Part shown: piece after piece, positions 10,479 through 30,075 of the stretch
Numbering within the stretch: the first letter of the stretch is position 1
How the letters are laid out: each line of letters starts with the position of its first letter
Origin: a bacterium
GTDB taxonomy: Bacteria; UBP7; UBA6624
Direction: 5' to 3'
Assembly: GCA_002716355.1 (NCBI GenBank)
Contig: PBAU01000002.1
Span: 32,000-95,999, forward strand
DNA length: 64,000 bases
Notes under the pieces: model-generated
The model's input: the letters and a program-made list of their open reading frames with translations, nothing else
Database searches by the model: none
Told to the model about the DNA's origin: nothing
Made by a program: the position numbers and the translations under genes

Positions 10479-10482
10479 ACTT

Positions 10483-11748: not shown

Positions 11749-12366
11749 TTGAAAACTATTTTTCACAATTTTCAACAAAAAAGCTGGATAGACAGTTACT
11801 ACCTGCAGCTACAAGCTACTGAGGATGCTAGAAGGAATGTCGAACATGTATTTTTTTTTGAACATAAAAATGTTATCACCTTAGGAACATCTTCAACCAA
11901 AAGTGATATACCAAATACAGCCAATATTAGGCGTAAAAATATTAGTATTTTTAAAACAAACAGAGGTGGTGAAGCAACCTGGCATGGTGCCGGACAACTT
12001 GTTTTTTATCCAGTTTTAAACATAAAGAAAAGACGGATCAAAGCAACAGAGTTAGTGAAAATAGTGTTACAAGCAACACAAGATGCATTGTTAAAAAAAC
12101 AAATTGAAACCTCTATAAACCTCAAGAAACCTGGCTTGTATATTCAAAATAAGAAAATCGTTTCTTTCGGCATGACGATTCAAAAAGGGATAACCATGCA
12201 TGGCGTGTCAGTGAATGTGAACAACAATAATAAAGGATTTGCAGAAATCAAACCTTGTGGGATGCCGCCAAACACTGTTTCTTCCATCAAAGCTGAAACA
12301 GGTAGCAATGAAAGTATAGAATCAATTGCTCAAGAGGTTAAGCTTCATTTGAAAAAGATTTTATGA
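11749..12366 (+). CDS. lipB: Octanoyl-[acyl-carrier-protein]-protein N-octanoyltransferase
   Basis: The 205-residue product shows the LipB pattern: FFEHKNVITLGTSS, then RGGEATWHGAGQLVFYPVLN (the conserved RGG..T.HGPGQ region), and later KIVSFGMTIQKGITMHG with the catalytic lysine-type segment and PCGMP carrying the catalytic cysteine. It moves octanoyl groups from acyl carrier protein to lipoyl domains. The start is TTG at 11749, directly after the TAA of the previous gene. It overlaps lipA by four bases and lies just upstream of the dehydrogenase complex whose E2 it would modify. Confidence 0.92.
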   Translation: MKTIFHNFQQKSWIDSYYLQLQATEDARRNVEHVFFFEHKNVITLGTSSTKSDIPNTANIRRKNISIFKTNRGGEATWHGAGQLVFYPVLNIKKRRIKATELVKIVLQATQDALLKKQIETSINLKKPGLYIQNKKIVSFGMTIQKGITMHGVSVNVNNNNKGFAEIKPCGMPPNTVSSIKAETGSNESIESIAQEVKLHLKKIL

Positions 12367-13205
12367 CACAACATCCTAATTGGACAAAGATTCAAATCAA
12401 GCCTGGTTCTACAAAATCTCTCATTGACCTTTTTGCTGAACCGGAAGAGTTTAAGATAACCACTGTTTGCGAAGAGGCATGTTGTCCCAATTTGCCAGAA
12501 TGCTGGGGCAAGGGTACAGCCACATTTATGTTGCTTGGAGATACCTGCACAAGAGGTTGTCGTTACTGTTCGGTCAAAAAAGGAATACCTGAACCACCTG
12601 ATCCCAATGAACCCGGGGATTTAGCTGAAACCATTCAAAAAATGAATGCAAAATACATTGTTTTAACAATGGTTGATAGAGATGATCTGATCGATGCCGG
12701 TGTCAGTCACATCATGGACACGGTAAACTCTATAAAGAGAATCAACCCCACAACAAAAATAGAATTACTTGTGGGTGATCTGAATGGTGAACCTGAGCTG
12801 ATTAAAGAGGTTGCCCAATCAAACATAAATGTTTTTTCTCACAATATTGAAACTGTAGAAAGGTTGTATCCAAAACTAAGACCACAAGGCAGTTACCAAC
12901 GCGCATTAAAAGTTTTAAGAGAGGCAAAAAAAACAGGTTGCCAAACAAAAACTAGCCTGATTGCCGGGATGGGGGAAACAACAGACGAGGTACTGTCTTT
13001 TTTGAAGGATATTAAAACGATTGAAGTGGATATTTTTACATCAGGACAATACTTGAGACCGTCACAAAACCAAGCACCGGTTATAAAACATCGCAGTCCA
13101 GAATGGTTTGAATTTATTGAACAGCAAGCAGAAATGTTAGGGATTAAATCCAAGTGCGGACCCCTGGTAAGATCCAGCTACATGGCTGAAACTCTATATA
13201 AATAA
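12363..13205 (+). CDS. lipA: Lipoyl synthase (radical SAM)
   Basis: The 280-residue enzyme inserts two sulfurs into octanoyl-E2. The auxiliary cluster motif CEEACCPNLPEC has its cysteines at the usual spacing, the radical SAM motif CTRGCRYC follows, and the closing VRSSY carries the serine ligand of the auxiliary cluster. All iron-sulfur ligands are present, which shows that the organism still builds such clusters. ATG 12363 overlaps the lipB stop. It is followed by two inverted repeats and then the dehydrogenase operon. Confidence 0.95.
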   Translation: MTQHPNWTKIQIKPGSTKSLIDLFAEPEEFKITTVCEEACCPNLPECWGKGTATFMLLGDTCTRGCRYCSVKKGIPEPPDPNEPGDLAETIQKMNAKYIVLTMVDRDDLIDAGVSHIMDTVNSIKRINPTTKIELLVGDLNGEPELIKEVAQSNINVFSHNIETVERLYPKLRPQGSYQRALKVLREAKKTGCQTKTSLIAGMGETTDEVLSFLKDIKTIEVDIFTSGQYLRPSQNQAPVIKHRSPEWFEFIEQQAEMLGIKSKCGPLVRSSYMAETLYK

Positions 13206-13245
13206 TACCCCCCCAGGGTATAGTTATTTTTTTTAAAAAAATAAC
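13205..13245. terminator. Two small inverted repeats between lipA and the E1 alpha gene
   Basis: Directly after the lipA stop ATACCC (13205-13210) pairs with GGGTAT (13216-13221) around a five-base loop. This is followed by the AT-only inverted repeat GTTATTTTTTT (13223-13233) / AAAAAAATAAC (13235-13245). The T run after the first hairpin is consistent with a weak intrinsic terminator or attenuator ahead of the dehydrogenase operon. The stem is short, so the call is tentative. Confidence 0.4.
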
Positions 13246-13260
13246 ATATAATTACCAGTT

Positions 13261-14400
13261 ATGAATTCGAAAAAAATAAATCAGAAACAAAAAAAATCAT
13301 TTGGGGTCGATCAACAAACAGCATTTGAAGTTCTGTATCATCCATTATTGAAAGCCAGGTTGCTTGACGAAAGAATGGTCAAGCTTTTTAATCAAGGTAG
13401 ATTTGGTGGTACATATTTTAGTGGTTGTGGTCAAGAGGCAACAAATGTTGGTGCAGGTGTTCACATGGTTGAAGGTGACATACTTGCTCCATCACATAGG
13501 CAACTAGGGGCCATGGTTGCTAGAGGTATAACCGCTAAAAGAGTGTTAGCACAAGTTTATTCAACAGCTGAATCGCCAGATGGAGCTCAGCAGCACCCAT
13601 GTCACTTTGGAGACCCGGAACTTGATATTGTTAGTCCCACAGGACATGTGGCGATACAGGTTGTTTTAGCTGCAGGTTCAGCCTACGCATATCTTTTAGA
13701 TGCGTACAGAAAAGGCGATGTGAAAATCAATTGGGACAAAGATGGAATCGTATGGGCTGGAAACTGGACGCTTAAAAAGGGATCCAAGCTCAATTGCGCT
13801 TTTGCATTTTTTGGAGATGGCGCAACAGCAAAAGGGGATTTTCATGAGTCTGTGAATTTTGCTGGAATACACAAATTACCAGTAATTTACATGGCTGAAA
13901 ATAATATATGGGCAGAGTCTGTTCACGTTACCGAGAATGTGCCTGTTGAGAGGTTAAGCGATAGAGCAGCTGCATATGGAATGCCCGGAGTTACTGTTGA
14001 TGGTCAGAATGTTTTTGAGGTTTATCACGCAGTGCAGGAGGCAGTTGAACGTGCTCGCTCTGGTGGCGGGCCAACCCTTGTTGAATGCTTGACTTATCGT
14101 TACCATGGACATTCCATGATTGATCCAGCTGATTATCGAACAGATGAAGAGGTTGAAAAATGGAAAAAGAGAGATCCTTTAATTGTTTTTGAACAGGTAG
14201 CTAAAGAGGATGGGATTTGGAGCGATAAACTCGCAAAGGAAACAGAAGACAGAATCAATAATGAGATTGAAGAGGCGATTGATTGGGTTGAAGATGAATC
14301 AACTAAACCCAAACCCGATCAATTCATTGATGTAACCTTTAGAGATCCAAAATTTAATGATGCAATTCGCAAGAGATGGGAGAAGAGAAAAAATGTCTAG
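13261..14400 (+). CDS. 2-oxoacid (pyruvate) dehydrogenase E1, alpha subunit
   Basis: The 379-residue product is the alpha half of a heterotetrameric thiamine-diphosphate E1. It contains the TPP motif FFGDGATAKGDFHES, followed by AENN, and a C-terminal YRYHGHSMIDPADYR with the phosphorylation-loop region. An extra segment of about 25 residues (around residue 155, with INWDKDGIVWAGNW) precedes the TPP motif. It decarboxylates a 2-oxoacid and passes the acyl group to the lipoyl arm of E2. Pyruvate is the likely substrate given the single complete complex and the lipoate genes, but branched-chain oxoacids or acetoin cannot be excluded. It overlaps the beta gene by eight bases. Confidence 0.88.
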   Translation: MNSKKINQKQKKSFGVDQQTAFEVLYHPLLKARLLDERMVKLFNQGRFGGTYFSGCGQEATNVGAGVHMVEGDILAPSHRQLGAMVARGITAKRVLAQVYSTAESPDGAQQHPCHFGDPELDIVSPTGHVAIQVVLAAGSAYAYLLDAYRKGDVKINWDKDGIVWAGNWTLKKGSKLNCAFAFFGDGATAKGDFHESVNFAGIHKLPVIYMAENNIWAESVHVTENVPVERLSDRAAAYGMPGVTVDGQNVFEVYHAVQEAVERARSGGGPTLVECLTYRYHGHSMIDPADYRTDEEVEKWKKRDPLIVFEQVAKEDGIWSDKLAKETEDRINNEIEEAIDWVEDESTKPKPDQFIDVTFRDPKFNDAIRKRWEKRKNV

Positions 14401-15424
14401 TAAAAATATTAGTTATATCCAGGCAATTACAGACACAATGTGGTCTGAAATGGAAATTGATGAAACGGTTTTTGTCTTAGGTCAAGATTGTGGAAGATAT
14501 GGAGGCGTGTTTAAAGCCACAGCCTGGAGGTCGGAAAAAGACGGCAAACCTGATTTAAGTAAAAAAATGTATGATGAATTTGGACCATTGAGAGTTCTTG
14601 ATGCACCTTTGGCAGAAAATGCAATCATCGGTGGTGCAATTGGTGCCGCTTTGTCTGGTTATAGGCCAATTGCTGAGATTCAATTTATGGATTTTATTGA
14701 TTGTGCTATGGGCCATATCGTGAACCAAGCAGGCACTATCTCTTTTAAGACTAATGGTAGTTGGTGTTGCCCAATTACAATTCGCACCCCTTATGGTGGA
14801 GGTATTGGCGGTGGTATGACCCATAGCCAAAGCAATGAAGCTTGGTTTTGTCATGCTGGTGGTCTAGTTGTAACCGCACCCAGCACACCAAGAGATGCAG
14901 CAGGGCTTTTAAGATCCTGCATTAGGGCAGATGATCCTTGTGTGTATATTGAGCACAAAGGTTTATATCGAGCTATAACTGGTGATGTGCCTGATGATCC
15001 CAACTTCACTATTGAATTAGGAAAAGGAAAAGTTGTTCGAGAGGGTAGTGATATTACATTGATTTCTTATGGCGCCATGTTGCACAAATGCTTAAGTGTT
15101 GCAGAAAAACTTGAATCTGAAGGCGCCAGTGTTGAGATTATTGATCCTCGAACATTATGGCCAATGGATGAAGATTTAATGATTAACTCTGCTTGTAAAA
15201 CAGGCAGGTGTGTGGTTGTTGCTGAGTCACATGCGGCGTATGGTTTCACTAGCGAGGTTGCCGCAAGAGTGCAAGAGGGTGCCTTTTGGAACCTATTAAC
15301 ACCAATTCGTACTATTGCAGGACCAGACACACCCTTCCCTTTTGAACCGGGAATGGAGGCTGCTTATCTGCCTTCAGATGATGAAATATACAACTCTTGT
15401 AAAAGAGCGTTGGGGGACGGATAA
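14393..15424 (+). CDS. 2-oxoacid (pyruvate) dehydrogenase E1, beta subunit
   Basis: The 343-residue product matches the E1 beta fold: FVLGQDCGRYGGVFKAT near the start, APLAENAIIGGAIGAALSGYRPIAEIQFMDF in the pyrimidine-binding domain (with the catalytic glutamate of LAEN), and IEIIDPRTLWPMDED in the C-terminal domain. ATG 14393 is preceded by GAGAAG and lies inside the end of the alpha gene, so translation is probably coupled. Its TAA shares a base with the ATG of the E2 gene. Confidence 0.9.
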   Translation: MSSKNISYIQAITDTMWSEMEIDETVFVLGQDCGRYGGVFKATAWRSEKDGKPDLSKKMYDEFGPLRVLDAPLAENAIIGGAIGAALSGYRPIAEIQFMDFIDCAMGHIVNQAGTISFKTNGSWCCPITIRTPYGGGIGGGMTHSQSNEAWFCHAGGLVVTAPSTPRDAAGLLRSCIRADDPCVYIEHKGLYRAITGDVPDDPNFTIELGKGKVVREGSDITLISYGAMLHKCLSVAEKLESEGASVEIIDPRTLWPMDEDLMINSACKTGRCVVVAESHAAYGFTSEVAARVQEGAFWNLLTPIRTIAGPDTPFPFEPGMEAAYLPSDDEIYNSCKRALGDG

Positions 15425-16662
15425 TGCCAATTAAAGTTCCAGTTCCCGATCTAGGTGTTTCTGTTGTTGAAGCCAAAGTGGCCGAATGGAAGAAAAAAAT
15501 AGGTGATGATGTTGTTCGTGATGAAGAGATTGGTATATTGGAAACAGACAAGATAACAACCCCAATTACAGCATTCAAAGAAGGGAAACTTGTAGCACTT
15601 TTTGCAAAACCTGGGGATACCGTTCCCGTGGGACAAACTATAGCAATTATCCAAAAAGTTGGAGAAAATTTATCCCAAGAAGATATTGATAAGTTGAATC
15701 CACATGGTTCAAAACCGACACCGGAACCGACACCGGAACCGACACCGGAACCCATTAAAACAACTGTTGACACCAAACGTCAAGGCTCAAATCCCCAAAC
15801 CCTTAAAACCAGTCCAGCTGTTAGAAGGTATGCGAGTGAGAATGACATTAACCTGGTTGATGTTCAAGGCACTGGCTCTAATGGAAGAATCCAAATGGCT
15901 GATGTTTTAGCGTTTAAAAAACCAATCAAATCTACGGGTTTAAATTTAGAACCTGATAATACTGAATCCAGAAGTCCTGTCAGCAGCTCCATGGCTGTTA
16001 TGGCAAAACATATGGTTCACTCAGTGTCAACCAGCCCGCATTTTTTAATTGTTGATGAACTTGACATGACTGAAACATTGGCTGTATATAAGAATTTAAA
16101 ACCAAAATTGCAAGAAAGCGGAATCAGGTTAACACTCATGAGCTTTTTTGTCAGAGCAGCAGCACAAGCGCTTAAGGATTTTCCAAGAATGAATGTTTCT
16201 CTTGAAAAAGACACTTTGATAACCAAGAATTATAGAAATATAGGAATGGCAGCTAGTGTTGGGGAAAGTTTGATAGTGCCTGTTATCAAGAATGCTGATC
16301 TTTTAAATATTGAAAATCTTGCAGCTGAAATCAACAGATTGTCTATTGCCGCTCAGGAAAACAAATTAACAATGCAAGACATTACAGGTGGAACATTCAC
16401 AATCACCAATGCAGGCATGTTTGGAGGCCCGTTATTTTCAGCACCTATTATCAATCAGCCTGAAGCGGCTATATTGGGTATTCACACAGTGAAAGAAAGA
16501 GCTGTTGTTGAGAATGGAAATATTGTTGTAAAACCAATGGTTTATGTATCCCTTTCAAGTGATCACAGAATGGTAGATGGCGTTTTAGCTGTTAGGTTTT
16601 TATGCAGGGTTAAAGAGTTGCTTCAGCATCCAGGCTTAATGGCAACTGGACCTCTTTTATGA
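15424..16662 (+). CDS. Dihydrolipoamide acyltransferase E2, one lipoyl domain
   Basis: The 412-residue protein has one N-terminal lipoyl domain (1-78) with the modified lysine in ETDKITT (Lys43). A short linker made of PTPE repeats follows, then a peripheral-subunit-binding domain (about 125-160, SPAVRRYASENDINLVDVQGTGSNGRI) and a catalytic domain ending with DHRMVDG, which holds the active-site histidine. It transfers acyl groups to CoA. The upstream lipB/lipA pair would supply its lipoyl group and Lpd follows downstream, so the set is self-contained. Confidence 0.92.
   Translation: MPIKVPVPDLGVSVVEAKVAEWKKKIGDDVVRDEEIGILETDKITTPITAFKEGKLVALFAKPGDTVPVGQTIAIIQKVGENLSQEDIDKLNPHGSKPTPEPTPEPTPEPIKTTVDTKRQGSNPQTLKTSPAVRRYASENDINLVDVQGTGSNGRIQMADVLAFKKPIKSTGLNLEPDNTESRSPVSSSMAVMAKHMVHSVSTSPHFLIVDELDMTETLAVYKNLKPKLQESGIRLTLMSFFVRAAAQALKDFPRMNVSLEKDTLITKNYRNIGMAASVGESLIVPVIKNADLLNIENLAAEINRLSIAAQENKLTMQDITGGTFTITNAGMFGGPLFSAPIINQPEAAILGIHTVKERAVVENGNIVVKPMVYVSLSSDHRMVDGVLAVRFLCRVKELLQHPGLMATGPLL
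15715..15750 (+). repeat. Three perfect 12-bp tandem repeats in the E2 linker
   Basis: The unit CCGACACCGGAA is repeated exactly three times and encodes PTPE each time. It forms the flexible linker between the lipoyl domain and the subunit-binding domain. Perfect identity at the DNA level implies recent slippage-type expansion, so copy number may vary between strains. Confidence 0.95.
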
Positions 16663-18035
16663 AATATGACTTGGTTGTGATAGGTGCTGGCCCAGGTGGC
16701 TATGTGTGTGCTTTACGGGCAGCACAACTCGGCTTAAAGGTAGCTGTTGTTGAAAAGAAAAAAGCGGGTGGAACATGTTTGAATGTTGGTTGCATACCAT
16801 CTAAAGCTTTATTGGATTCAACAGAAATTTTTTCTGAAATTTCACCAGGGAACGAACATGGAATAGAGGTCAGCAAAGCTAACATTAACTGGTCGACCCT
16901 GCAATCCAGAAGGGAAAAAATTGTTACCCAATTAACAGGTGGTGTTGAATTTCTTTTAAAAAAGGCTAAGGTTGATTATTATCAAGGATTTGCAGATGTG
17001 AAATCTTGTTATACGGTTGTTGTTGGCAGGAATAATCTTGCAACTAAAAATGTTGTTTTGGCCACCGGATCCACACCTGTAGAAATTCCATTTTTGCCAT
17101 TTGATGGAGAACATGTTATAAGTTCAACCGAAGCTCTTAATCAATTCAATATACCCAAAAGTCTTATTGTTGTTGGAGGAGGTTATATAGGGTTAGAAAT
17201 GGCCAGTGTTTACAGCCGAATCGGAACCCATGTCACAGTAATTGAGATGATGGATCGGATTGTTCCATTGATGGATACAGATATAAGCAAGCAGTTGCAA
17301 AAATCATTAAGAAAACAAGGCATCAAGTTTAAAACATCAACCAAGGTGACCGATTGCAAGAAAACAAAAAATAAAATTATTTTAAATTTAGAAAAAAACA
17401 AAAAAACAAGCACACAGGAGGCTGATCAAGTTCTTGTTGCTGTAGGTCGTCGGCCTAATGCAGGGGGTATTAACCTCAATGCTTTAGGAGTCACAATGGA
17501 TGAGAGGGGGTTTGTTTCTGTAAATCAAAACATGGAAACATCCATACCTGGTATTTATGCCATAGGCGATTTGGTTCCAGGTCCCATGCTTGCACATAAA
17601 GCCAGTGAGGAAGGGGTGGTTGTTGCCGAAAGAATTGCTGGCAAGCAAACAACACTTGACTATAGCTTGATTCCATCTGTAGTTTACACACACCCTGAAG
17701 GCGCTTCTATTGGTAGAACCGCAGATGAGCTTAAAAAAGCCAACGTAGAATTTAAAACAGGTATGTTTCCGTTTTCTGCATCCGGAAGAGCTATGGCTAT
17801 AGGTTGTACTGAAGGTTTTGTTAAGGTGTTAGCAGATTCCAAAACCGATAAGGTTTTAGGGGTCCATATATTAGGGCCGAAAGCTTCAGAATTAATATCT
17901 GAAGCAGCAATGGTGATGGGCTTCTGTGGCACTGCTGAAGACATAGGTGTGTTTATTCACGCGCACCCAACACTTTCGGAAGCATTAAAAGAAGCCGCTC
18001 TTGAAGCTTCTGGTCATGGTGCGATTCATACCTAA
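16659..18035 (+). CDS. lpdA: Dihydrolipoamide dehydrogenase (E3)
   Basis: The 458-residue flavoprotein has the FAD motif VIGAGPGGYVCALRAAQLG, the redox disulfide GGTCLNVGCIPSKALL, the NAD motif VVGGGYIGLEMASVYSRIG, the second FAD contact IYAIGDLVPGPMLAHKA, and the C-terminal HAHPTLSEALKEAAL with the catalytic His-Glu pair. It reoxidises dihydrolipoyl groups of E2 with NAD+. It is the last gene of the dehydrogenase set and overlaps the E2 gene by four bases. Confidence 0.95.
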   Translation: MKYDLVVIGAGPGGYVCALRAAQLGLKVAVVEKKKAGGTCLNVGCIPSKALLDSTEIFSEISPGNEHGIEVSKANINWSTLQSRREKIVTQLTGGVEFLLKKAKVDYYQGFADVKSCYTVVVGRNNLATKNVVLATGSTPVEIPFLPFDGEHVISSTEALNQFNIPKSLIVVGGGYIGLEMASVYSRIGTHVTVIEMMDRIVPLMDTDISKQLQKSLRKQGIKFKTSTKVTDCKKTKNKIILNLEKNKKTSTQEADQVLVAVGRRPNAGGINLNALGVTMDERGFVSVNQNMETSIPGIYAIGDLVPGPMLAHKASEEGVVVAERIAGKQTTLDYSLIPSVVYTHPEGASIGRTADELKKANVEFKTGMFPFSASGRAMAIGCTEGFVKVLADSKTDKVLGVHILGPKASELISEAAMVMGFCGTAEDIGVFIHAHPTLSEALKEAALEASGHGAIHT

Positions 18036-18234: not shown

Positions 18235-18945
18235 ATGCAAGACAAAAAAATGCCTCTGTCCGAGCATTTTGCTGATCTGCAAAAAACTTTATTAAACAGT
18301 CTTCTTTATTGTTTTTTTGCCTCTGTTTTGCTGTCCTTTTTTCATAAGGAATTATTAATTGCTTTTCAAAAACCACTAAACAATGTCGGAATTACTGCGT
18401 TAAATGTTTTATCTCCACAAGAGGGGTTCCTCATCCCCATCAAGTTGGTTTTAATGTGTGGTTTAATTGTGGCAACACCTTTGATTGTTAGAGAGGTTAC
18501 CTTATTTGCCTGGCCCGCATTAAGGCAAAATGAAAAACAAATACTTCAAACTTTTGTAATCCCAAGTTTTTTAATTGCACTTGTTGCAGCGTTTTTTGCT
18601 TGGCAGGTTTTAATACCAATATCAATTGAATTTCTGCTCAAGGCAACAACAAACAATAACCTACAAGCAACATGGACATTGCAATATTGGTTTGTTTTTG
18701 TTCAATCTATGTTGATTGCCTCTGTGGCTGCTTTTCAACTGCCAATAGTCATGGGGGTTTTAGCTAAATTCGGCTTAATTGACTCACATACGGTCCGGGA
18801 AAAAGGCCCACATGCAATTATTGGGCTATTGATATTATCTGGTTTTATAACCCCTCCAGATGTTGTCACGCAGATCATTATCGCCATACCATTAATCCTT
18901 CTGTTTTATTTCAGTATTTTCATAGTCAAGGCAAACGAGGATTAA
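18235..18945 (+). CDS. tatC: Twin-arginine translocase subunit TatC
   Basis: The 236-residue membrane protein has about six hydrophobic helices. It opens with MPLSEHFADLQ, the usual EHxxELR region that recognises signal peptides, and has LSPQEGFLIPIKL in the first periplasmic loop and LSGFITPPDVVTQ near the end. It is the receptor of the Tat pathway. No TatB is visible next to it, so the system may be of the TatAC type. A 69-base gap separates it from the Hdr-like genes. Confidence 0.93.
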   Translation: MQDKKMPLSEHFADLQKTLLNSLLYCFFASVLLSFFHKELLIAFQKPLNNVGITALNVLSPQEGFLIPIKLVLMCGLIVATPLIVREVTLFAWPALRQNEKQILQTFVIPSFLIALVAAFFAWQVLIPISIEFLLKATTNNNLQATWTLQYWFVFVQSMLIASVAAFQLPIVMGVLAKFGLIDSHTVREKGPHAIIGLLILSGFITPPDVVTQIIIAIPLILLFYFSIFIVKANED

Positions 18946-19014: not shown

Positions 19015-21336
19015 ATGGCACGAATAGGTGTTTTTCTTAGCAAAGAGGGAAAAGGTTTAGATCCGCTTAACCTACAAACCATTGCTGACAGATTGGTTGA
19101 GGAAGTGCAGGAGATAAACCATGTTTTTATACATGAAGACCTCAACACAGTTCAAGGTTTGGAAGCAATATCACAAGAGATCAAAAATCAAGATATTGGC
19201 TATGTTGTTATCGGTTGTGGCTCTATTGATCAAAGGGAAGAGAATATCAGAAAAACATTGAATACAGCTGGCATTAACGAATACCTTTTGGAGGTTGTTA
19301 ATCTTAAAGAAATGGTAGCTAACGTGCATTCAGAAGAGCCCGAGAAAGCCAATGAAAAAGCTTTTCAGCTATTGAAAACAGCAGTTATCAAGGTTGAGCA
19401 AAGTAAACCTTTAGAAAAAACACCAATGAGGGTGGAACAACAAGTTTTAGTTGTTGGCGGCGGTGTTGCAGGCATGACTGCTTCTTTGAGAATTGCAGAT
19501 GCTGGCTACAGTGTTGTTTTAGTTGAAAAGTCACCTGCATTAGGTGGAAAAGTTGCCTCTCTCAAAAATCTTTGGCCAAAACTCGAAGAGGCAGATGACT
19601 TAATGAGGAATCTTTCAATCAGTTGTCATCAACATGAAAATATAGTTATTTATGATTATTCAGAAGTTAAATCTATAGACGGAGTTCGTGGGGATTTTGA
19701 TGTTGAAATAGTCAGAAAACCAAGATTTGTTCAAAGTCAAAAAATTGTAAATTTTGAAAAAATTACAGAATCATTAAAAACGGATTTTCCAAATAAGCAC
19801 ACCGGAGGCAGGACGGTGAACAAGGTTCTTTATCAACCATACGCAGGCTGTGTCCCACCATTGTTTTTGATAGACCCAGAAAATATAAATCATCCAGATG
19901 TCAAAAAGTTAATCACACTTGTTCCTGATGGAACTGTGAATCAGAACGAAAAGGAAAAAATCGTTCATGAAAAAGCAGGTGCTGTGATTATGGCTTTTGG
20001 AGCTGGGATGATGGATTGTTCTGGCTTAACAAATTTAACTGCTGCAAATAGTGAAAATGTACACAGTGCTAGTGATTTTGAATTTTTGAATTTCAAAAAA
20101 GACGAAGAAATGTCGTTGTTATGGGTTGCAGATGCAGGAAGCAATGATCCCAAGAACGGTGTTGCTTACGCTTCCGAAGTGCCTTTGATGACCTGTGTCA
20201 AACAGGCTATTTTTGCTAAAAAAATGTCTAATGGAAAAATTCACACAACAGTTGTTTACTCAGATAGGAGATCCAGAACAAAAGGATATGAAGAATTTAT
20301 CAAAACCGCTGAGGAAAAATACCAGGTACAGATGGTTAGAGGCGCTGTTTCAAATGTAACTTCAAAGTCAAACGGGTTGTCTGTCAGCTTGCACGATTTA
20401 ATACAGGGCAAAGAGCAAAAGGTATCAGTTGACAAGGTTGTTTTGGCACAAGAGGTTGTTGCACACGATGATTCACAACATCTAGCAAGTATTGTTGATA
20501 TAGGTCGTGACGAAACAGGCTTTCTTGCTGAAACCCATCCTTCTCTGGAGCCATGTTCAACCAGTAATTCTGGAGTTTTTGTTTGTGGAGACTGTGCGTC
20601 TCCCGGTGATATCAGAGCTGCTGTTTTGACAGCTGAATCAGCAGTTGCTAAAGCTATGGCCGTTTTGGCCCAAAAAACAAGTGAGCCCTACAGGTTAAAA
20701 CAAAAAGATGAGCAACTTGCACGATTTGATGCTCCAGCAAAAGAGGTTTCTCCTGAGAGCTTTCAAACAAATGATGAAGGTGGCATGAATTACACAAGAT
20801 TAAATAATGTTTTTGGTAAAACTGAAAGCGGTGTGTCCATACCAGCCTCACCAACCAGAAACATTGAACTTGCTGGTTGGGAGCTTTCTAAGTCAATTGC
20901 AGAAATTGAAAATATTTGGACAGATGCAAAAAATGACAACTGGGAACCAAGAATAACAGGATTTGCATCACAGTATGGTGGTTATCCACTTTTGGAAACA
21001 CTTGGAAGAGAGGAGGTTTCTTATTCATCTTGTTTTAGATTTCTGAGAGTGCGCTCAACAGCACATCTGGATCCACTCCTTGTCCTCAAAAGCTTCTTTA
21101 ATGGTGCAGATGGTGTGTTTATTATTGGTGGACCTTTAGGCAAAGGCAAGTTTCACAACGACAACTACCTTGCAAAAAGAAGATTTAAAGCATTAGAAGG
21201 GGTGCTTGATGCTGGTGGGATTGAGCCAGATAGAGTCAAGATTTTATTTGTAGATTCTCACCAAATTGATGAAGTTGCTGATCAGTTGCAAAAATTCCAT
21301 AATGCTGTCTCTAGCTTAGGCCCTTTAGGTATTTGA
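19015..21336 (+). CDS. HdrA-MvhD (QmoB-like) fusion protein lacking iron-sulfur cysteines
   Basis: The 773-residue protein follows the HdrA layout: N-terminal domain (1-130), FAD domain with VVGGGVAGMTAS (146-156) and VEKSPALGG, a ferredoxin-like insert (about 235-310), the rest of the flavin domain ending with GVFVCGDCASPGDI (520-532), and a C-terminal MvhD domain (about 645-770). Aligned without gaps to the family pattern as I remember it, cluster cysteines are replaced: S9 and E11; E192 and D195; I244, F247, I250 and L254; I291, V296, L299 and V303; and in MvhD S652, G655, S681, G706 and G711. The FAD site is kept. Normal HdrA proteins bifurcate electrons from FAD through these clusters, so this one cannot do so in the usual way. 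It is first in a four-gene cluster with GGAGGA before ATG 19015. Confidence 0.82.
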   Translation: MARIGVFLSKEGKGLDPLNLQTIADRLVEEVQEINHVFIHEDLNTVQGLEAISQEIKNQDIGYVVIGCGSIDQREENIRKTLNTAGINEYLLEVVNLKEMVANVHSEEPEKANEKAFQLLKTAVIKVEQSKPLEKTPMRVEQQVLVVGGGVAGMTASLRIADAGYSVVLVEKSPALGGKVASLKNLWPKLEEADDLMRNLSISCHQHENIVIYDYSEVKSIDGVRGDFDVEIVRKPRFVQSQKIVNFEKITESLKTDFPNKHTGGRTVNKVLYQPYAGCVPPLFLIDPENINHPDVKKLITLVPDGTVNQNEKEKIVHEKAGAVIMAFGAGMMDCSGLTNLTAANSENVHSASDFEFLNFKKDEEMSLLWVADAGSNDPKNGVAYASEVPLMTCVKQAIFAKKMSNGKIHTTVVYSDRRSRTKGYEEFIKTAEEKYQVQMVRGAVSNVTSKSNGLSVSLHDLIQGKEQKVSVDKVVLAQEVVAHDDSQHLASIVDIGRDETGFLAETHPSLEPCSTSNSGVFVCGDCASPGDIRAAVLTAESAVAKAMAVLAQKTSEPYRLKQKDEQLARFDAPAKEVSPESFQTNDEGGMNYTRLNNVFGKTESGVSIPASPTRNIELAGWELSKSIAEIENIWTDAKNDNWEPRITGFASQYGGYPLLETLGREEVSYSSCFRFLRVRSTAHLDPLLVLKSFFNGADGVFIIGGPLGKGKFHNDNYLAKRRFKALEGVLDAGGIEPDRVKILFVDSHQIDEVADQLQKFHNAVSSLGPLGI

Positions 21337-21339
21337 AAC

Positions 21340-22233
21340 ATGAATGAAATGAGAATAACAATCCAACGAGAAGCCAGAAGGCTTTTACAGCTGCAAAAAG
21401 TCAGCGTTGTTATAGGTTATGAGGTTGGTCCATACCCTGGCACGACCGCTCCCTGTTTCGCTTTCACCCCAGATGACGCTCAAAGAATTGTTTTCAATAG
21501 CTTTTCGTCTATCAATTTAGCCGTTTATCTTCCAGGCATTACTGGAAATGTTGGCATAGTGGCCACACCTGCAACTGTAAGATCCATCAAAGAGCTCGAA
21601 AAAGACGGCTTGGTGAATCGTAAAAATCTGCATATTATTGGTGTGAAATTTCCAGGAATATTAGATCCTCGACATTTAAATGTTGACAGAGAGAACGAAA
21701 ATACGTTATCAGTCAATGAGCATCCAGAAGCTTTATGGGAGTGGGCACTTCATGATCTTTACGAGGAGCCAGAAGATTATGACATACTTGTTGAGCCCAG
21801 GTGGATGAATGACCTCAGTAAAGCCGGCAAACTAAAAAAACCCACCCCAAACCGTACCAGCGTTGAAAGGTTAGAGCAGATGACTCATCACGAAAGAAGG
21901 CTATACTGGATGAGTTATTTTGAAAAACATAGGCATTCAGACCATAATAAAAATTTATTTCCTTCCACTTATGCGGGAGGAGACCATTTAGAAAAGTTTA
22001 AATATATCAAATCTGCATATAGCTCGAACGAGCTTTTTTACGAACATCTTTCATGGGTTTACCAATCGATGGGTCGAGCTTCTGGCTTCGATCTCTCAGA
22101 CCTTACAGAGGACATGAATCAAATACCCCTTTCAACAATTCGAGCTTGGGCTGCTAGAGAGTTTAGAAAAAATTTTAATTACAGGCCAGGTGGGGAAGAG
22201 CCAAATCCATTACTGAAAAAGGAAAACATATAA
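21340..22233 (+). CDS. FrhB-like (coenzyme F420 hydrogenase beta / Fe-S) subunit homologue without cysteines
   Basis: The 297-residue protein matches the FrhB-like subunits found beside bacterial HdrA: VIGYEVG, then NSFSSINLAVYL, VGIVATPATVRSI, IIGVKFPGILDP, and a C-terminal double-ferredoxin region. Only one cysteine (residue 39) remains. Expected ligand positions hold A78, F104, A136, D139, H197, S200, N203, F207, T210, A212, A247, F250, S253 and E257, with flanking residues such as MTHHERR, GR (245-246) and IPL (262-264) kept. The reading frame is intact over the whole length. It begins three bases after the HdrA-like stop, so it is probably in the same complex. The intact counterparts carry electrons; what this one does is unknown. 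Confidence 0.72.
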   Translation: MNEMRITIQREARRLLQLQKVSVVIGYEVGPYPGTTAPCFAFTPDDAQRIVFNSFSSINLAVYLPGITGNVGIVATPATVRSIKELEKDGLVNRKNLHIIGVKFPGILDPRHLNVDRENENTLSVNEHPEALWEWALHDLYEEPEDYDILVEPRWMNDLSKAGKLKKPTPNRTSVERLEQMTHHERRLYWMSYFEKHRHSDHNKNLFPSTYAGGDHLEKFKYIKSAYSSNELFYEHLSWVYQSMGRASGFDLSDLTEDMNQIPLSTIRAWAAREFRKNFNYRPGGEEPNPLLKKENI

Positions 22234-22234
22234 C

Positions 22235-23257
22235 ATGAGCGACTATATTTTGTCAAAAGCTAAATTGAAATATTGGTTAGAGGATGTCAGAAAACGAAAT
22301 GAACTATGGGCACCCGTTGGATCCAAAGGCGCTGTAAGTTATTTGAAAAATCCAAAAGGTGAAAATGTTGCAACAGATTTTACAAATAGTTTGGATTGTC
22401 CAAAGTATATATTTTGCCCACAGCAAGATGCCATATGCAACTATGAGATACAAGGAAGAGGCAAGGTTGCTATTGAGGAAGTTGAGCTCGATGTGACTCC
22501 TAGAGTTGTATTTGGCTTACGGCCACCAGACATTAGAGGCATCGAAATTCTCGATGCTTACCTGTTGAAAGATCAAATTGATCGGAGATACGAGGCAAGG
22601 CGAAAAAATACAATAAATATTTGTCTTGGTTACCATAACCCACCTCCTTGCTGTTTCGCAGAGTCTGTAGGTGTCGATCTTTTTCCCAAGAGTGGCTCTG
22701 ACATTTTGTTAACTGATATTGGTAGGAGTTATTATGTTGAAACACTTTCTGAAAAAGGAGATAGCCTGATCTCGGAACATTTCAATGAAGCTGATGATAT
22801 TGTTCGAAATGAAGCCTGGGATATACAGAAGGGAAGTGAAGGAAAAACAAATTTTGATTTAAATTTGAATCGTTGGCAGGATTTCACTGATACTGAAATT
22901 TACACTTTGCCGTATTGGGATGAAATTTATTTGGGCATTATTGCTGATTCTGTCGCAACCAGGTATTTTTACTCAGGAACTTATTTTAAGATTGTTGATG
23001 TTAACAGTGGAAACAAGGGCACAAGGTATAAAACCTGGACAACAATGTATTCTCCAGGCTTTTCAACATTGGCAAATGGTTATGACTACAAGCCAAGCCT
23101 CAAGGAAAAATTTAAAGATTGGATATTAGAAATGTTTCATTTTTTTCCAAAAAGACATGGTTTTATTGGCTGTTCAGGTGCGCACAGGTGCATTGCAGGC
23201 ATGACCACCAAGCATGACCTGAGAAAAATTATTTCTAATGTGGACTTTGGAATATGA
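22235..23257 (+). CDS. AsrA/HydB-like (4Fe-4S dicluster) subunit homologue with most ligands lost
   Basis: The 340-residue protein aligns with the beta subunits of sulfhydrogenase, anaerobic sulfite reductase A and FlxB-type proteins. Recognisable parts are VVFGLRPPDIRGIEILD (91-107, where RPCD is usual), NPPPCCFAESVG (135-146), SDILLTDIG, and a C-terminal GFSTLANGYDYKP...FFPKRHGFIGCSGAHRCIAGMTT. The first ferredoxin motif has I235, D238, A241, F245, G248 and Y250 at the cysteine positions. In the last one C313 and C319 remain but the second and fourth ligands are A316 and M323. It cannot hold normal [4Fe-4S] clusters. It starts one base after the previous stop and overlaps the next gene by four bases. 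Confidence 0.72.
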   Translation: MSDYILSKAKLKYWLEDVRKRNELWAPVGSKGAVSYLKNPKGENVATDFTNSLDCPKYIFCPQQDAICNYEIQGRGKVAIEEVELDVTPRVVFGLRPPDIRGIEILDAYLLKDQIDRRYEARRKNTINICLGYHNPPPCCFAESVGVDLFPKSGSDILLTDIGRSYYVETLSEKGDSLISEHFNEADDIVRNEAWDIQKGSEGKTNFDLNLNRWQDFTDTEIYTLPYWDEIYLGIIADSVATRYFYSGTYFKIVDVNSGNKGTRYKTWTTMYSPGFSTLANGYDYKPSLKEKFKDWILEMFHFFPKRHGFIGCSGAHRCIAGMTTKHDLRKIISNVDFGI

Positions 23258-24030
23258 ATTTAGTACCAAAGATAGCAAATATAAAAAATACAGAACGGGA
23301 TGGTCGTTTAGGGTCAATATCATTTGATTTTGATGGGGACCTGAAGGCCGGACAGGTTTTCAAGATAGGGACCTTTGGAAAAGGAGAAACAACTGCTTGG
23401 GTCATAGATGCGGAAGATAAAACCGTAACCGTTTCGTTTCTGGATAACAACCCTGTCACACATAAAATCATGCTCCTTCCCACAGATGAATGCATTACTG
23501 TAAGAGGGCCATTTGGCAATGGTTTTTCACTTTTAGATGAAAGAAATATTTTATTAATTAGTCAAGATGATGGAATATTAAGCCAAAAGAAACTTATTAA
23601 TGATTTGCTCCAAAATGGTAATCAGGTCAGCTTGCTCCACTTCACCTCTTTTCCAAAAGATATATTTATGAGCTCTTCACTTAAAAAAGCTGTATCAGAT
23701 GACTCTCCTATCAATGGTGAAATTATCGATATGACAAAAAAAGGACCACAGGATTTAGATACGTTTATCAAATCTTGCATCAAGGCAAGTTACACCTCCG
23801 GAATAAACGCAGTGGCTCTATCAGGCAATGAGAATTTTCAGCAGTCTGTGTCGAGGGTTCTGGAGAAAACAATGATTAAAGATAAAAGCATACAAATTTT
23901 ATTTAATCGTAATTTTGTTTCAGGAATGGGTTGGTCTAACAAGGATCTTTACGGTACCACAAACATATGGAAAGAAGGGCCAGTATTTACATTAGATCAG
24001 GTTCGAAGATTCCCAGGTGTATTCATTTAA
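23254..24030 (+). CDS. AsrB/HydG-like flavin reductase subunit homologue lacking the [2Fe-2S] and nucleotide motifs
   Basis: The 258-residue protein has the outline of ferredoxin-NADP reductase-like gamma subunits (sulfhydrogenase gamma, AsrB, FlxA). It has an N-terminal barrel with VRGPFGNGF (83-91) and a C-terminal nucleotide-binding half ending EGPVFTLDQV. The FAD motif RxxS is replaced by the segment around TTAWVID (46-52), and the glycine-rich NAD loop reads ISQDDGILS (102-110). The four cysteines of the [2Fe-2S] site are S223, S228, D231 and W239, with exact spacing and with glycines 224, 226 and 234 retained. It closes the four-gene cluster and converges with rsmA with an eight-base overlap. 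Confidence 0.72.
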   Translation: MNLVPKIANIKNTERDGRLGSISFDFDGDLKAGQVFKIGTFGKGETTAWVIDAEDKTVTVSFLDNNPVTHKIMLLPTDECITVRGPFGNGFSLLDERNILLISQDDGILSQKKLINDLLQNGNQVSLLHFTSFPKDIFMSSSLKKAVSDDSPINGEIIDMTKKGPQDLDTFIKSCIKASYTSGINAVALSGNENFQQSVSRVLEKTMIKDKSIQILFNRNFVSGMGWSNKDLYGTTNIWKEGPVFTLDQVRRFPGVFI

Positions 24031-26055: not shown

Positions 26056-27214
26056 AAATACAAAGAATTTTTTAATTGCTTTAGATAGCTTTAAGGGAAC
26101 CATGAGTTCCACCGAAGCAGGAGATGTTGTTGCCCAGGCTATACTTCAAAAATACCCTAAATCAAATGTATTTGTTAAGAATTTTGCAGATGGTGGTGAG
26201 GGAACGGCAGATGTCCTGTTGGATTATTTCGATCATGAAGCTCACAAGGTTAAAACCCAAGGTGCCAACGGGAAGGATATTGATGCTTATTGGTATTTTT
26301 TGAAAAAAGAAAAAGTAGCCCTGCTAGAAATGGCTTCAATTGTCGGGATTTCAATGATTCCCAAGTCCGAATTAGATCCAGAGGCTTTAAGCACTTGCGG
26401 TCTTGCTCCAGTTATTATTGACATTCTTGAAAAAGGTATTAGAAAAATCTGGTTTACTGTTGGCGGAACCTCAACGGTTGATGCTGGACTTGGCTTGCTG
26501 AAAGGGATGGGCGTTTCCACACGGGAAGGGACATTTCCTAATTCATTATTAGCAGTAAAGAAAGATATTTTTTTTGATTTTAAAAATTTAGATTCGATGA
26601 TTTCAGATCTTAAAATACACCCAGCAAAAGGCAGCTGTTTGTTTCCTGATGTTTTTTTTGATATAATAGCTGATGTTCGCGCTCCTCTTTTAGGTAAGCG
26701 AGGTGCTGTTTTGGCTTTTGGCAAGCAAAAGGGTGCTACCCCTAAAAATATTCCTATTTTGGAACAAGGGATGGCTGATTTTGCTTGTATGGTTGAAGCC
26801 AAAGTCGAGGACTCGACCTTTTTGCAAACAAAAGGTTTGGGTGCTGCTGGCGGCATCGCTCTTGGGCTGGCCTTGCTTTTTAACGTGAATATTAAAAATG
26901 GAGCTGATTTTGTTATTGACAAAATGGGGCTCAGGGACGAGATGAGTAATTTTGATTTTGTGATAACAGGAGAGGGACAGTTTAACTCTCAAACCAAACA
27001 AGGGAAAGGGCCATGGTCTATTGCATCACTAGCTGTAAGTAATAGCACCCCAGTTTTGATTATTAGTGGTTTGAAAATTAAAGAAAGAAACAAAACAAAA
27101 GATTTTTCTTTCTTGGAGGTTTCTCAGACAGTCCCAAGAAACAAAAAAGAGGCACAATTAAATCTTTTCCAAGCTATGAGTGGATGGCTTGATGATAATG
27201 AGGTGAAAAAATGA
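26051..27214 (+). CDS. Glycerate kinase, probable ATT start
   Basis: From ATT 26051 the product reads (I/M)KNTKNFLIALDSFKGTMSS, which matches the family's opening VIAPDSFKGS. The first ATG (26102) would remove the conserved DSFKG. Between the in-frame TAG at 26018 and that ATG there is no ATG, GTG or TTG, so a rare ATT start (26051 or 26075) is the best explanation. Further family motifs are FADGGEGTADVL, VGGTSTVDAGLG and ITGEGQFNSQTKQGKGP. The enzyme phosphorylates glycerate to 2-phosphoglycerate. The ATT overlaps the TAA of the upstream gene, which suggests coupling. It overlaps the next gene by four bases. Confidence 0.82.
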   Translation: MKNTKNFLIALDSFKGTMSSTEAGDVVAQAILQKYPKSNVFVKNFADGGEGTADVLLDYFDHEAHKVKTQGANGKDIDAYWYFLKKEKVALLEMASIVGISMIPKSELDPEALSTCGLAPVIIDILEKGIRKIWFTVGGTSTVDAGLGLLKGMGVSTREGTFPNSLLAVKKDIFFDFKNLDSMISDLKIHPAKGSCLFPDVFFDIIADVRAPLLGKRGAVLAFGKQKGATPKNIPILEQGMADFACMVEAKVEDSTFLQTKGLGAAGGIALGLALLFNVNIKNGADFVIDKMGLRDEMSNFDFVITGEGQFNSQTKQGKGPWSIASLAVSNSTPVLIISGLKIKERNKTKDFSFLEVSQTVPRNKKEAQLNLFQAMSGWLDDNEVKK

Positions 27215-30075
27215 AACAAAACAAAGTAATTGATATGGGTTTGATTATTACTGAAACCTTTGCAGGTATTATGCAGAAAAATATTGCAAAAGCAGGAACT
27301 TTAAAAGATCTAGAAGCCAGTTTTTTAGAATATGAGGATGCTATTGGTTTAGATGCAAAAATATTTGTTAAAAGATATGCTATGAAGTTTTTATCAAATT
27401 GTGCTTTTATAAAAAAATGGGATGATGGTTGGGTTTTAGTTCCTCATAAGCTAAAAGCACACAAGCTAGCAAGAGAAATACTAGAAGAAAGCGGATCTTT
27501 TATGTTGGAATCCAAAATAAGAAGCCAAGTTGCTAAGCGACTCGGACAGAAAGTTAGTGAGACAAAGTTATATCTAGATATAGATGATGATTTTTCATTG
27601 GCGGAAGGCTTAAGGCAGGAAGATCAAATAGGCAGAGGTGCCATTTGGGGTTTGTGTGAATGGGTTTTGATTAATAATTTAGCAAAAACCCTTATTGAAT
27701 CCCGAGGTCCAATGAAAGAAAAAAGAATCATCAGCACATTGATCGAGAATGATTTAGTTACACAGGAAAAACAACCTGTTTTTTGCCCGCAGATAGACAA
27801 GAGATTTATAGCTGAATCAGGTAATTCATGGGATGTAGGAAAGGCAAAAAAGCAACCCCTTCAGACACCTAAAACCGGAGCTTTGGAGACCAAGATAAGA
27901 GAGGAGATAACAAGCAAGGTAGAAAGATTGCTGGAGAATCAGGCATCAGACAAGAGTTTTTCAAAACAGGAGATTACAACTGCCCTGATTGGTAGTGCAA
28001 AAAGTTCTAAAGGTTCTCATTACCAGGACATGCTGGACGAGATCCTTTCTGTTTTTGAGAAATCTAAAAAGATAACCAAGGTTCGATTCGAACTTAAAAA
28101 CCCATATTGGATTAAGTCTGAAAGCCTGCCAAAGATAGATGTAAAAAAATTAGATCTAATTTTTCCACTCCCATATTCCGAACATCAGCTTTTGGGAGAC
28201 GATATATTTAATGAAAATCTTTTTGCAAATCTCTCTGATCCAGCTTTGTATTGGTTGGACGGGGATTTTTCCGAACAGGGTTTTCCTGAGGTGGAGCCAT
28301 TGTTTATTTTAACTTTCAATGACTTTGTAAATGACGAGTTAAACTACATATCACAACCATTGGTTAATGCTATTCAGGCTTCATTGCTTGCATCTAATGA
28401 GTGGGGTGAATTTGTTTTACAAACACCCGACAAGCAAGAGCTTTCTATTTTGATTAATTTTAAGCATCAAATAATTTCAGGTATGGCATCCTGGGTTAAT
28501 GGCTATGCCCAACCTGGTGATGTTTACAATTTCGAATATCTCGGATCATCTACTTTCAGGCTTGTAAAAAATAAAGAGATTAAAAATCCATCACTAGATG
28601 ACGATGAACTAGAAAGATTACTCTCCTTACAGGCAGAGAGCAAACTAACACTCAAAAAACTTGTAATTGAAGTTTTAAAACATCACCCAGGTGGTTTAAC
28701 CTTCAGCGGTATATTTAATCGCTTAATGTTTATAAGAAGAATTTCAAGAAGATCTTTAATGAGTGAGTTGACAAAATTCTTTTGTTTTGATTGTAAAGAT
28801 GATAAATGGAAATATTATGAAAAAAGATCTGACCTAGGAGAAAAGTTTTCTGCTAGCTCTTTTCCAATTGCTGGTTTAAATACCAATTGTTGGATATTGC
28901 GTGAGGAAATGCAGCCCGAAGTTGGGGATTCATTGAATATGGTTTATGGGAAAGCAGCACATAATGATTTGTTTTGCATTGTTAATCCAAAAAATCAACT
29001 TACCAGTGTGTTTCGATTAGCCGTTAAAGGTAAAAAATGCACAATTCAAGATATTACAAGCTGTGAGCCAATGCCTTTAGATAATTTTGATATCCCAAAA
29101 GCAGGTCTGAATCAGATTGAGAATTCAGTTTTTTGTGACATTAACGAAGAGCTTGAAAGGGAGGTTTTGGATTCCGAAGTTTACGCAGGAATTAAGCAGG
29201 CCTTCACGACATTTGAACCTAATCCAAGTGTAAACCAGGAGGTTACAAGAAGCTTAGAGGAGCTAGAGAGTCTTTTGGAGGATTCTGGTTCCGTTAGTCC
29301 ATTCGGTGGCTTGGCATGGCAACTTCAGCAAAAATTTACCTGGCAGGAATTTCAAAAAGTTTTAGACTCAAAGATTTATTCTCAAGAGCATGAGGACCGT
29401 TTGGATGCAGGCAAGTTTGCAAGCTGGATGGCGAAAAGACCAATAGCATGGGACTCCGAATCGATTGTTTATCCAGCTGGACATGGGGAATTGTCAATCT
29501 GCATTCTGGAAGCATTGATTTCCATAATGCAAAATGCTGATTACACCATAGAGGAAGATTCACTTAACATTAGAACAGCCCTTAATAGCGATTTTGTTTT
29601 TAACTGGAGCAAACTGTTGTCAGACCAAAGAAGAATCAAGAAGATTGTTGACATGGAAGATAGTTTTGAATTAGTTGAATTTTTATCTGGCTGGTTTAGA
29701 CGAGTAGCCAAGATTATTGAACCTAGAAAATTAGAAAGTGTAATTAACAGGTTAAGTTTTCACCTGAAAGGTATCGGATCTGTCGATATTAGCGATAAGG
29801 ATTTGCCAGAATATTTAAAATCAGAAAAATCTTCCCTGACAGGTCTAAGTCTTTCTGGAGACAAGCAAGAAAAATCTGCAACTTTGTTTGCAGATTTTAG
29901 AGGATTTTCAAAAGCCAAGATTAAGAAAACATTAAGCCTAGCACCTTCAGTTCTTGTTGATGGGGGACTGCTTGTTTTTGTTTCATTTGAAAATCAAAAA
30001 GTAAACTTTAAAAATGGAAAGCTAGAGGACCAGATCTCAATGGGTTCAATAGTTGCTAAATCTTATATCGTTTAA
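27211..30075 (+). CDS. Large protein of unknown function with winged-helix-like segments
   Basis: The 954-residue product has no catalytic motif or membrane segment that I recognise. Several parts look like winged-helix or HARE-type helical domains: about residues 85-112 (LAREILEESGSFMLESKIR), 157-182 (TLIESRGPMKEKRIISTLI) and 484-530 (LVIEVLKHHPGG followed by an Arg-rich helix). Between them are acidic, mixed alpha/beta regions. It begins inside the end of the glycerate kinase gene (ATGA overlap). Its end overlaps the convergent amidase gene by 20 bases. A DNA- or RNA-associated role is only a guess from the winged-helix-like parts. Confidence 0.6.
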   Translation: MKQNKVIDMGLIITETFAGIMQKNIAKAGTLKDLEASFLEYEDAIGLDAKIFVKRYAMKFLSNCAFIKKWDDGWVLVPHKLKAHKLAREILEESGSFMLESKIRSQVAKRLGQKVSETKLYLDIDDDFSLAEGLRQEDQIGRGAIWGLCEWVLINNLAKTLIESRGPMKEKRIISTLIENDLVTQEKQPVFCPQIDKRFIAESGNSWDVGKAKKQPLQTPKTGALETKIREEITSKVERLLENQASDKSFSKQEITTALIGSAKSSKGSHYQDMLDEILSVFEKSKKITKVRFELKNPYWIKSESLPKIDVKKLDLIFPLPYSEHQLLGDDIFNENLFANLSDPALYWLDGDFSEQGFPEVEPLFILTFNDFVNDELNYISQPLVNAIQASLLASNEWGEFVLQTPDKQELSILINFKHQIISGMASWVNGYAQPGDVYNFEYLGSSTFRLVKNKEIKNPSLDDDELERLLSLQAESKLTLKKLVIEVLKHHPGGLTFSGIFNRLMFIRRISRRSLMSELTKFFCFDCKDDKWKYYEKRSDLGEKFSASSFPIAGLNTNCWILREEMQPEVGDSLNMVYGKAAHNDLFCIVNPKNQLTSVFRLAVKGKKCTIQDITSCEPMPLDNFDIPKAGLNQIENSVFCDINEELEREVLDSEVYAGIKQAFTTFEPNPSVNQEVTRSLEELESLLEDSGSVSPFGGLAWQLQQKFTWQEFQKVLDSKIYSQEHEDRLDAGKFASWMAKRPIAWDSESIVYPAGHGELSICILEALISIMQNADYTIEEDSLNIRTALNSDFVFNWSKLLSDQRRIKKIVDMEDSFELVEFLSGWFRRVAKIIEPRKLESVINRLSFHLKGIGSVDISDKDLPEYLKSEKSSLTGLSLSGDKQEKSATLFADFRGFSKAKIKKTLSLAPSVLVDGGLLVFVSFENQKVNFKNGKLEDQISMGSIVAKSYIV

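Follow-up and report, generated by a model that had tools for sequence, protein, structure and literature searches.

A four-gene HdrA/Flx-type cassette in UBP7 bacteria that appears to be kept under selection after losing nearly all of its iron–sulfur ligands

In this work we have analysed a stretch of 64,000 nucleotides (the window) from a 1.26-Mb, 87%-complete MAG of the bacterial candidate phylum UBP7, in which four adjacent genes, P1 to P4, encode homologues of the subunits of an HdrA/Flx-type complex and nearly every cysteine that should bind an iron–sulfur cluster has been replaced. Sequence comparison traces the four genes back to a canonical HdrA-FlxDCBA-type cassette (HdrA, MvhD, FrhB-like, AsrA, AsrB), an electron machine which in UBP7 seems to have been converted to another function. 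We give an even chance to the reading, drawn from the comparison of three genomes, that the quartet is now a maintained cluster-free flavoprotein complex, or a flavin-sensing scaffold, with a retained fold in an aerobic lineage.

Results

The quartet lies at positions 19015–24030 of the window and consists of four intact, nearly abutting ORFs, with gaps of 3 and 1 bp followed by a 4-bp overlap:

19015–21336, + strand: P1, HdrA-MvhD (FlxD) fusion, 773 aa, all Fe-S cysteines lost (NCBIfam HdrA2, PDB 5odc_A)
21340–22233, + strand: P2, FrhB/FlxC-like, 297 aa, near-invariant cysteines 15/15 lost (profile matches by cassette position, ligand scoring)
22235–23257, + strand: P3, AsrA/HydB/FlxB-like, 340 aa, cysteines 12/15 lost (NCBIfam ShyB, PDB 9nez_B)
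23254–24030, + strand: P4, AsrB/PyrK/FlxA-like, 258 aa, [2Fe-2S] cysteines and NAD and flavin motifs lost (NCBIfam)

The closest relatives in public genomes were found in UBP7_UBA7824 (94% identity over P3) and NIOZ-UU106 (55%), which places the MAG in UBP7; a wider contig scan reached only close relatives, and the known UBP7 quartets, including that of the window MAG, number three from two genera. P1 is a full-length homologue of HdrA/HdrA2 (type Ia), with an FAD/thioredoxin-reductase core and a C-terminal MvhD. It matches NCBIfam HdrA2 (E 3.7e-116), Pfam FlpD/MvhD (5e-24) and the archaeal HdrA of solved structure (PDB 5odc_A, E 3e-68), and its MvhD part matches that structure's MvhD (E 2e-18). 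In each of the three UBP7 genomes, which are incomplete MAGs, no HdrA homologue other than P1 was found. P3 matches the NCBIfam sulfhydrogenase beta subunit ShyB (6.8e-19) and AsrA (2e-9), the beta subunit in PDB 9nez_B (3e-13) and the Pfam domain Fer4_22 (1e-7), while P4 matches NCBIfam PyrK/AsrB (1.4e-13 and 3e-11) and resembles the sulfhydrogenase gamma subunit (PDB 9nez).

P2 had no convincing match in Pfam or NCBIfam. When 383 non-UBP7 genomes were searched with a profile made from its three UBP7 members, 30 of them yielded homologues. Around the 20 best-scoring loci the genes repeatedly stand in the order HdrA–MvhD–P2–P3–P4, HdrA and MvhD being encoded separately; a few of these canonical loci are truncated or interrupted. 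Since the profile matches the FrhB/FlxC-like gene at its proper place in the cassette, P2 can be assigned as the FrhB/FlxC-like subunit. The canonical cassette, complete in its cysteines, is spread over many unrelated bacterial families and has the same order as in UBP7, where the gene order is of the HdrA-FlxD-FlxC-FlxB-FlxA type. This shared order argues for homology of each gene of the UBP7 quartet to its counterpart in an HdrA-FlxDCBA-type cassette. The Flx names follow the usage for this family, which reportedly goes back to Ramos et al. 2015 (cited in PMC12054007). At five canonical cassettes (L063, L068, L070, L072 and L076) the HdrA ORF has about 1480–1540 aa and contains repeated HdrA-like modules.

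The FlxABCD-HdrABC and HdrA-MvhD-FrhB-like-AsrA-AsrB cassettes of anaerobic bacteria share with the quartet their families, order, full-length homology and tight operon. In UBP7, however, HdrA and MvhD are fused, two Fer4 domains are deleted, the FlxA-like NAD/flavin motifs and most ligand-type cysteines are gone, and neither hdrB nor hdrC adjoins the quartet at this locus. Type Ia HdrA (HdrA2, the HdrA-MvhD fusion) has in common with P1 the domain order HdrA then MvhD, the FAD motif and the equivalents of K409 and E356 discussed below, but P1 is without any Fe-S ligand. P3 is also homologous to the beta subunit of sulfhydrogenase (HydB) and to AsrA, and P4 to the gamma subunit (HydG) and AsrB, whereas no hydrogenase or siroheme subunit is adjacent in UBP7 and the ligands and the NAD and flavin motifs are absent.

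To score the ligands we aligned 10–20 canonical sequences per family with MAFFT and took as ligand columns those with cysteine in at least 90% of them. Sixty-two of these 65 near-invariant columns are lost in all three UBP7 quartets: 25 of 25 in the HdrA part of P1, all five in its MvhD domain, all 15 in P2, 12 of 15 in P3 (C140, C313 and C319 are kept) and five of five in P4, among them the four [2Fe-2S] cysteines, with one column that is probably no ligand. Among 343 equally invariant non-cysteine columns, 136 were kept and 207 changed (Fisher p = 1.4e-9; the test takes columns as independent, which is not strictly so, but the contrast is nevertheless large). Because the loss of cysteine far exceeds this background, it is directed at cysteine. 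In the ferredoxin-like domain of HdrA, for example, C-x2-C-x2-C-x3-C has become I-x2-F-x2-I-x3-L. The former cluster sites of P1 are:

19744–19776, + strand: residues 244–254, formerly CxxCxxCxxxC, now I..F..I...L (second genus L..L..A...L), by alignment
20131–20187, + strand: residues 373–391, once the cluster insertion of HdrA, with D, A, P, L in place of C, C, CC, by alignment
20947–21327, + strand: MvhD/FlpD domain without its [2Fe-2S] cysteines (Pfam FlpD 5e-24; 5/5 lost)

These results agree with an earlier note on this DNA, which had assigned the genes to HdrA-MvhD, FrhB-like, AsrA/HydB-like and AsrB/HydG-like families (now borne out by profile matches and cassette order) and had described a concerted replacement of nearly every cluster-binding cysteine, which we find in every one of the four proteins and in each of the three genomes. 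Its description of the motif spacing as conserved almost throughout is right for most former ligand sites but not for the two C-terminal Fer4 domains of HdrA (eight cysteines), which were deleted and have a linker in their place. The same note had asked whether these families ever had ligands. Outside UBP7, 26 of the 27 P2 homologues examined carry two full CxxCxxCxxxC motifs, the remaining one being ended early by a stop, and the canonical HdrA, MvhD, P3 and P4 families all possess near-invariant cysteine columns. No cysteine-free relative from outside UBP7 was found with the P2 profile among 386 sampled genomes, nor with the P3 profile in four small phyla, where matches reached at most 156 bits as against about 690–750 for UBP7. 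A literature search for a cluster-free HdrA found no paper.

Beyond the cysteines, the following sites of P1 and P3 are of interest:

19441–19557, + strand: P1 residues 143–181, FAD-binding Rossmann motif GGGVAG...VEK..GG, retained (Pfam Pyr_redox_2/FAD_oxidored)
20080–20082, + strand: P1 E356, equivalent to E356 of M. thermolithotrophicus HdrA, retained, by alignment
20200–20202, + strand: P1 K396, equivalent to the flavin-N5 lysine K409 of M. thermolithotrophicus HdrA, retained, by alignment
23156–23215, + strand: P3 residues 308–327, with H308, C313, H317, C319 and H327 invariant in the three genomes, candidate replacement metal site, by alignment

In P1 many residues of the HdrA core are retained, including the invariant G148, G150, G153, E171, G177 and G178 of the FAD motif. 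In the M. thermolithotrophicus HdrA the flavin N5 is held by K409 and E356, a pair put forward as a signature of bifurcating enzymes (PMC12054007), and the three UBP7 members all have equivalents of the two. The E356 match depends on the MAFFT alignment, phmmer having put a neighbouring glutamate there for the window protein, and NIOZ-UU106 keeps the context FER...SGGPT around it. P4, on the other hand, has lost both the glycine-rich NAD loop (GGGxG, where GGG has become SQD or SMD) and the SSP motif on the flavin side. By these alignments no cofactor site of the quartet can still be recognised except the HdrA FAD pocket, as had been noticed earlier, and conservation of this pocket extends to the N5 lysine. 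In P3, H308, C313, H317, C319 and H327 could possibly form a mononuclear metal site. AF2 models from three sequences reached a pLDDT of 43 for P1 and 28 for P3, and the case for a retained fold therefore rests on sequence homology.

Relative to UBA7824, dN/dS (Nei-Gojobori) was 0.040 for P1, 0.020 for P2, 0.033 for P3 and 0.036 for P4, compared with 0.038 for the neighbouring E3 (lpd), 0.031 for tatC, 0.070 for rsmA and 0.181 for glycerate kinase; the values are approximate because dS, at about 0.9–2.5, is near saturation. No frameshifts occur in the quartet genes. Identity across genera is 60% for P2, 56% for P3, 54% for E3, 51% for P1, 37% for P4 and 34% for TatC, which makes P2 and P3 the most constrained subunits of the quartet. 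In the HdrA tree the UBP7 proteins form a single clade (100/100) on a stem of 1.91 changes per site with ordinary divergence after it, the position of the UBP7 branch and of the root not being resolved. A long stem with ordinary divergence after it is consistent with a shift of function after which constraint returned.

Upstream of the quartet, the window contains:

9615–18035, + strand: hbd, aconitase-family large subunit, lipB, lipA, PDH E1a, E1b, E2 and E3
18235–18945, + strand: tatC, directly upstream of the quartet (Pfam TatC 4e-46)

tatC is thus placed between the PDH operon and the quartet. In NIOZ-UU106 (L032) it lies at 4083–4769 and overlaps the start of P1 (4766–7114), so tatC and P1 are probably co-transcribed. 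In the second genus synteny extends through the entire block, with unrelated genes (rsmA, glycerate kinase) among those kept, and functional links of the quartet to PDH or Tat are for this reason only suggestions. As internal controls, LipA in the upstream block keeps CxxxxCxxxxxC and CxxxCxxC, and the ligand cysteines of the aconitase-family subunit are intact too. A NuoI-like ferredoxin protein has its two four-cysteine motifs in each of the three genomes, and SufBD is present as well. The cysteine loss is therefore specific to the quartet in an organism that still makes and uses clusters, and we rejected a genome-wide loss of Fe-S chemistry. All three UBP7 genomes encode a haem-copper oxidase (COX1), and UBP7 genomes also hold a gene for a 2-oxoacid:ferredoxin-type oxidoreductase, so ferredoxin chemistry is not gone. 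UBP7 MAGs have been reported from open-ocean vertical profiles (PMC10834958) and from hydrothermal sediment (PMC9213671).

Some other features of the region were seen. A gene (27211–30075 in the window) for a 954-aa protein which has no Pfam or NCBIfam match lies downstream of glycerate kinase in each of the three genomes; purifying selection on it is strong (dN/dS 0.04), yet identity across genera is only 34%. An amino-acid permease at 30623–33037 is fused to universal stress protein domains. Close to the beginning of the UBA7824 contig L031, an ORF (223–1065) combines a CcdA-like membrane segment with the C-terminal half of PDH E2; misassembly of the MAG is the probable cause.

Discussion

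Iron–sulfur relays are generally regarded as the reason for which HdrA/Flx-type complexes exist. Why, then, would bacteria keep such a complex without them? In the explanation that we prefer, the UBP7 stem lineage would have discarded all [4Fe-4S] and [2Fe-2S] clusters, and the terminal AsrB-like subunit would have given up its NAD/flavin function, with the fold and the set of subunits kept. Where the ferredoxin-like domain of HdrA had its cluster sites, cysteine gave way mainly to aliphatic and aromatic residues, which may repack the empty cavities. P1 would hold FAD with the N5 lysine and its partner glutamate, and this flavin could serve two-electron (hydride or thiol-type) chemistry or redox sensing. 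P2, P3, the MvhD domain and P4 would assemble with it as a scaffold and offer a new surface for docking or for a substrate. Life with oxygen is the probable driver, because the genomes encode a haem-copper oxidase and pyruvate dehydrogenase; as the ferredoxin-type 2-oxoacid oxidoreductase is still encoded, oxygen is an incomplete explanation. It also speaks against a cluster-free flavoprotein that P4 has no route from NAD(P)H to a flavin and that no electron donor is evident. The earlier note had spoken of a cluster-free version of an electron-bifurcating-type complex. The loss of cluster ligands under selection stands, but no electron relay remains, so the quartet cannot bifurcate as HdrA does and should not be called electron-bifurcating. 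More tentatively, at somewhat below an even chance, an entire multi-cluster bifurcating-type complex may have become a cluster-free flavoenzyme with a new reaction, which keeps the bifurcation-type flavin pocket and handles paired electrons only.

Precedents for the loss of a cofactor in a retained complex concern single subunits. FhcB of the methylotroph formyltransferase/hydrolase complex and Nqo3 of complex I are subunits of redox complexes which were retained in an aerobic context after losing the catalytic Mo/W cofactor, whereas in UBP7 the loss extends across four subunits. FhcB has been described as a scaffold without cofactor (PMC10100899). Could the quartet be a pseudoenzyme of this kind, a structural or regulatory scaffold that organises another enzyme, such as the upstream PDH or the Tat machinery, with FAD as a structural element or sensor? 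We consider this unlikely, though worth serious attention. Every electron exit and the NAD site are gone, and the quartet adjoins the PDH operon and tatC in the second genus too. Adjacency is weak evidence, however, where the entire block is syntenic, and a scaffold would not need to keep the lysine and glutamate that tune the flavin N5.

A new enzyme with a new metal site in P2 or P3, for example mononuclear zinc or iron at C313/H317/C319/H327/H308 of P3, is in our view improbable. These residues and the motifs NPPPCCFAESVGVDLFP, FPKRHGF and GCSGAHRC are invariant in the three genomes, and both subunits are better conserved across genera than E3. Nevertheless, conserved cysteines and histidines may be structural, the sample is three sequences and no catalytic motif was recognised. 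Very little can be said for an ancestral branch of the families that never had ligands, or for cysteines hidden by recoding or misassembly. UBP7 does sit on a long branch with an unresolved root position, but every sampled full-length homologue of every subunit carries ligands, archaeal HdrA included, and we rejected an ancestrally cluster-free family for this reason; as to recoding or misassembly, three independent MAGs agree and the neighbouring Fe-S proteins read normally. Finally, a decaying remnant (pseudogenes) of an anaerobic complex, suggested by the loss of functional residues, is scarcely credible and was rejected, since the ORFs are free of frameshifts, dN/dS is 0.02–0.04 in the comparison with a relative and the four genes stay together by synteny in two genera, all of which upholds the earlier claim that the quartet is maintained by selection.

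If a complex is kept under strong selection after its relay has been lost, its protein framework would have another selectable function. The UBP7 quartet may be regarded as a natural experiment on the survival of ferredoxin folds that have no clusters, and on whether a bifurcation-type flavin site can serve a separate purpose. It may likewise be one on the recycling of anaerobic machinery once a lineage respires oxygen.
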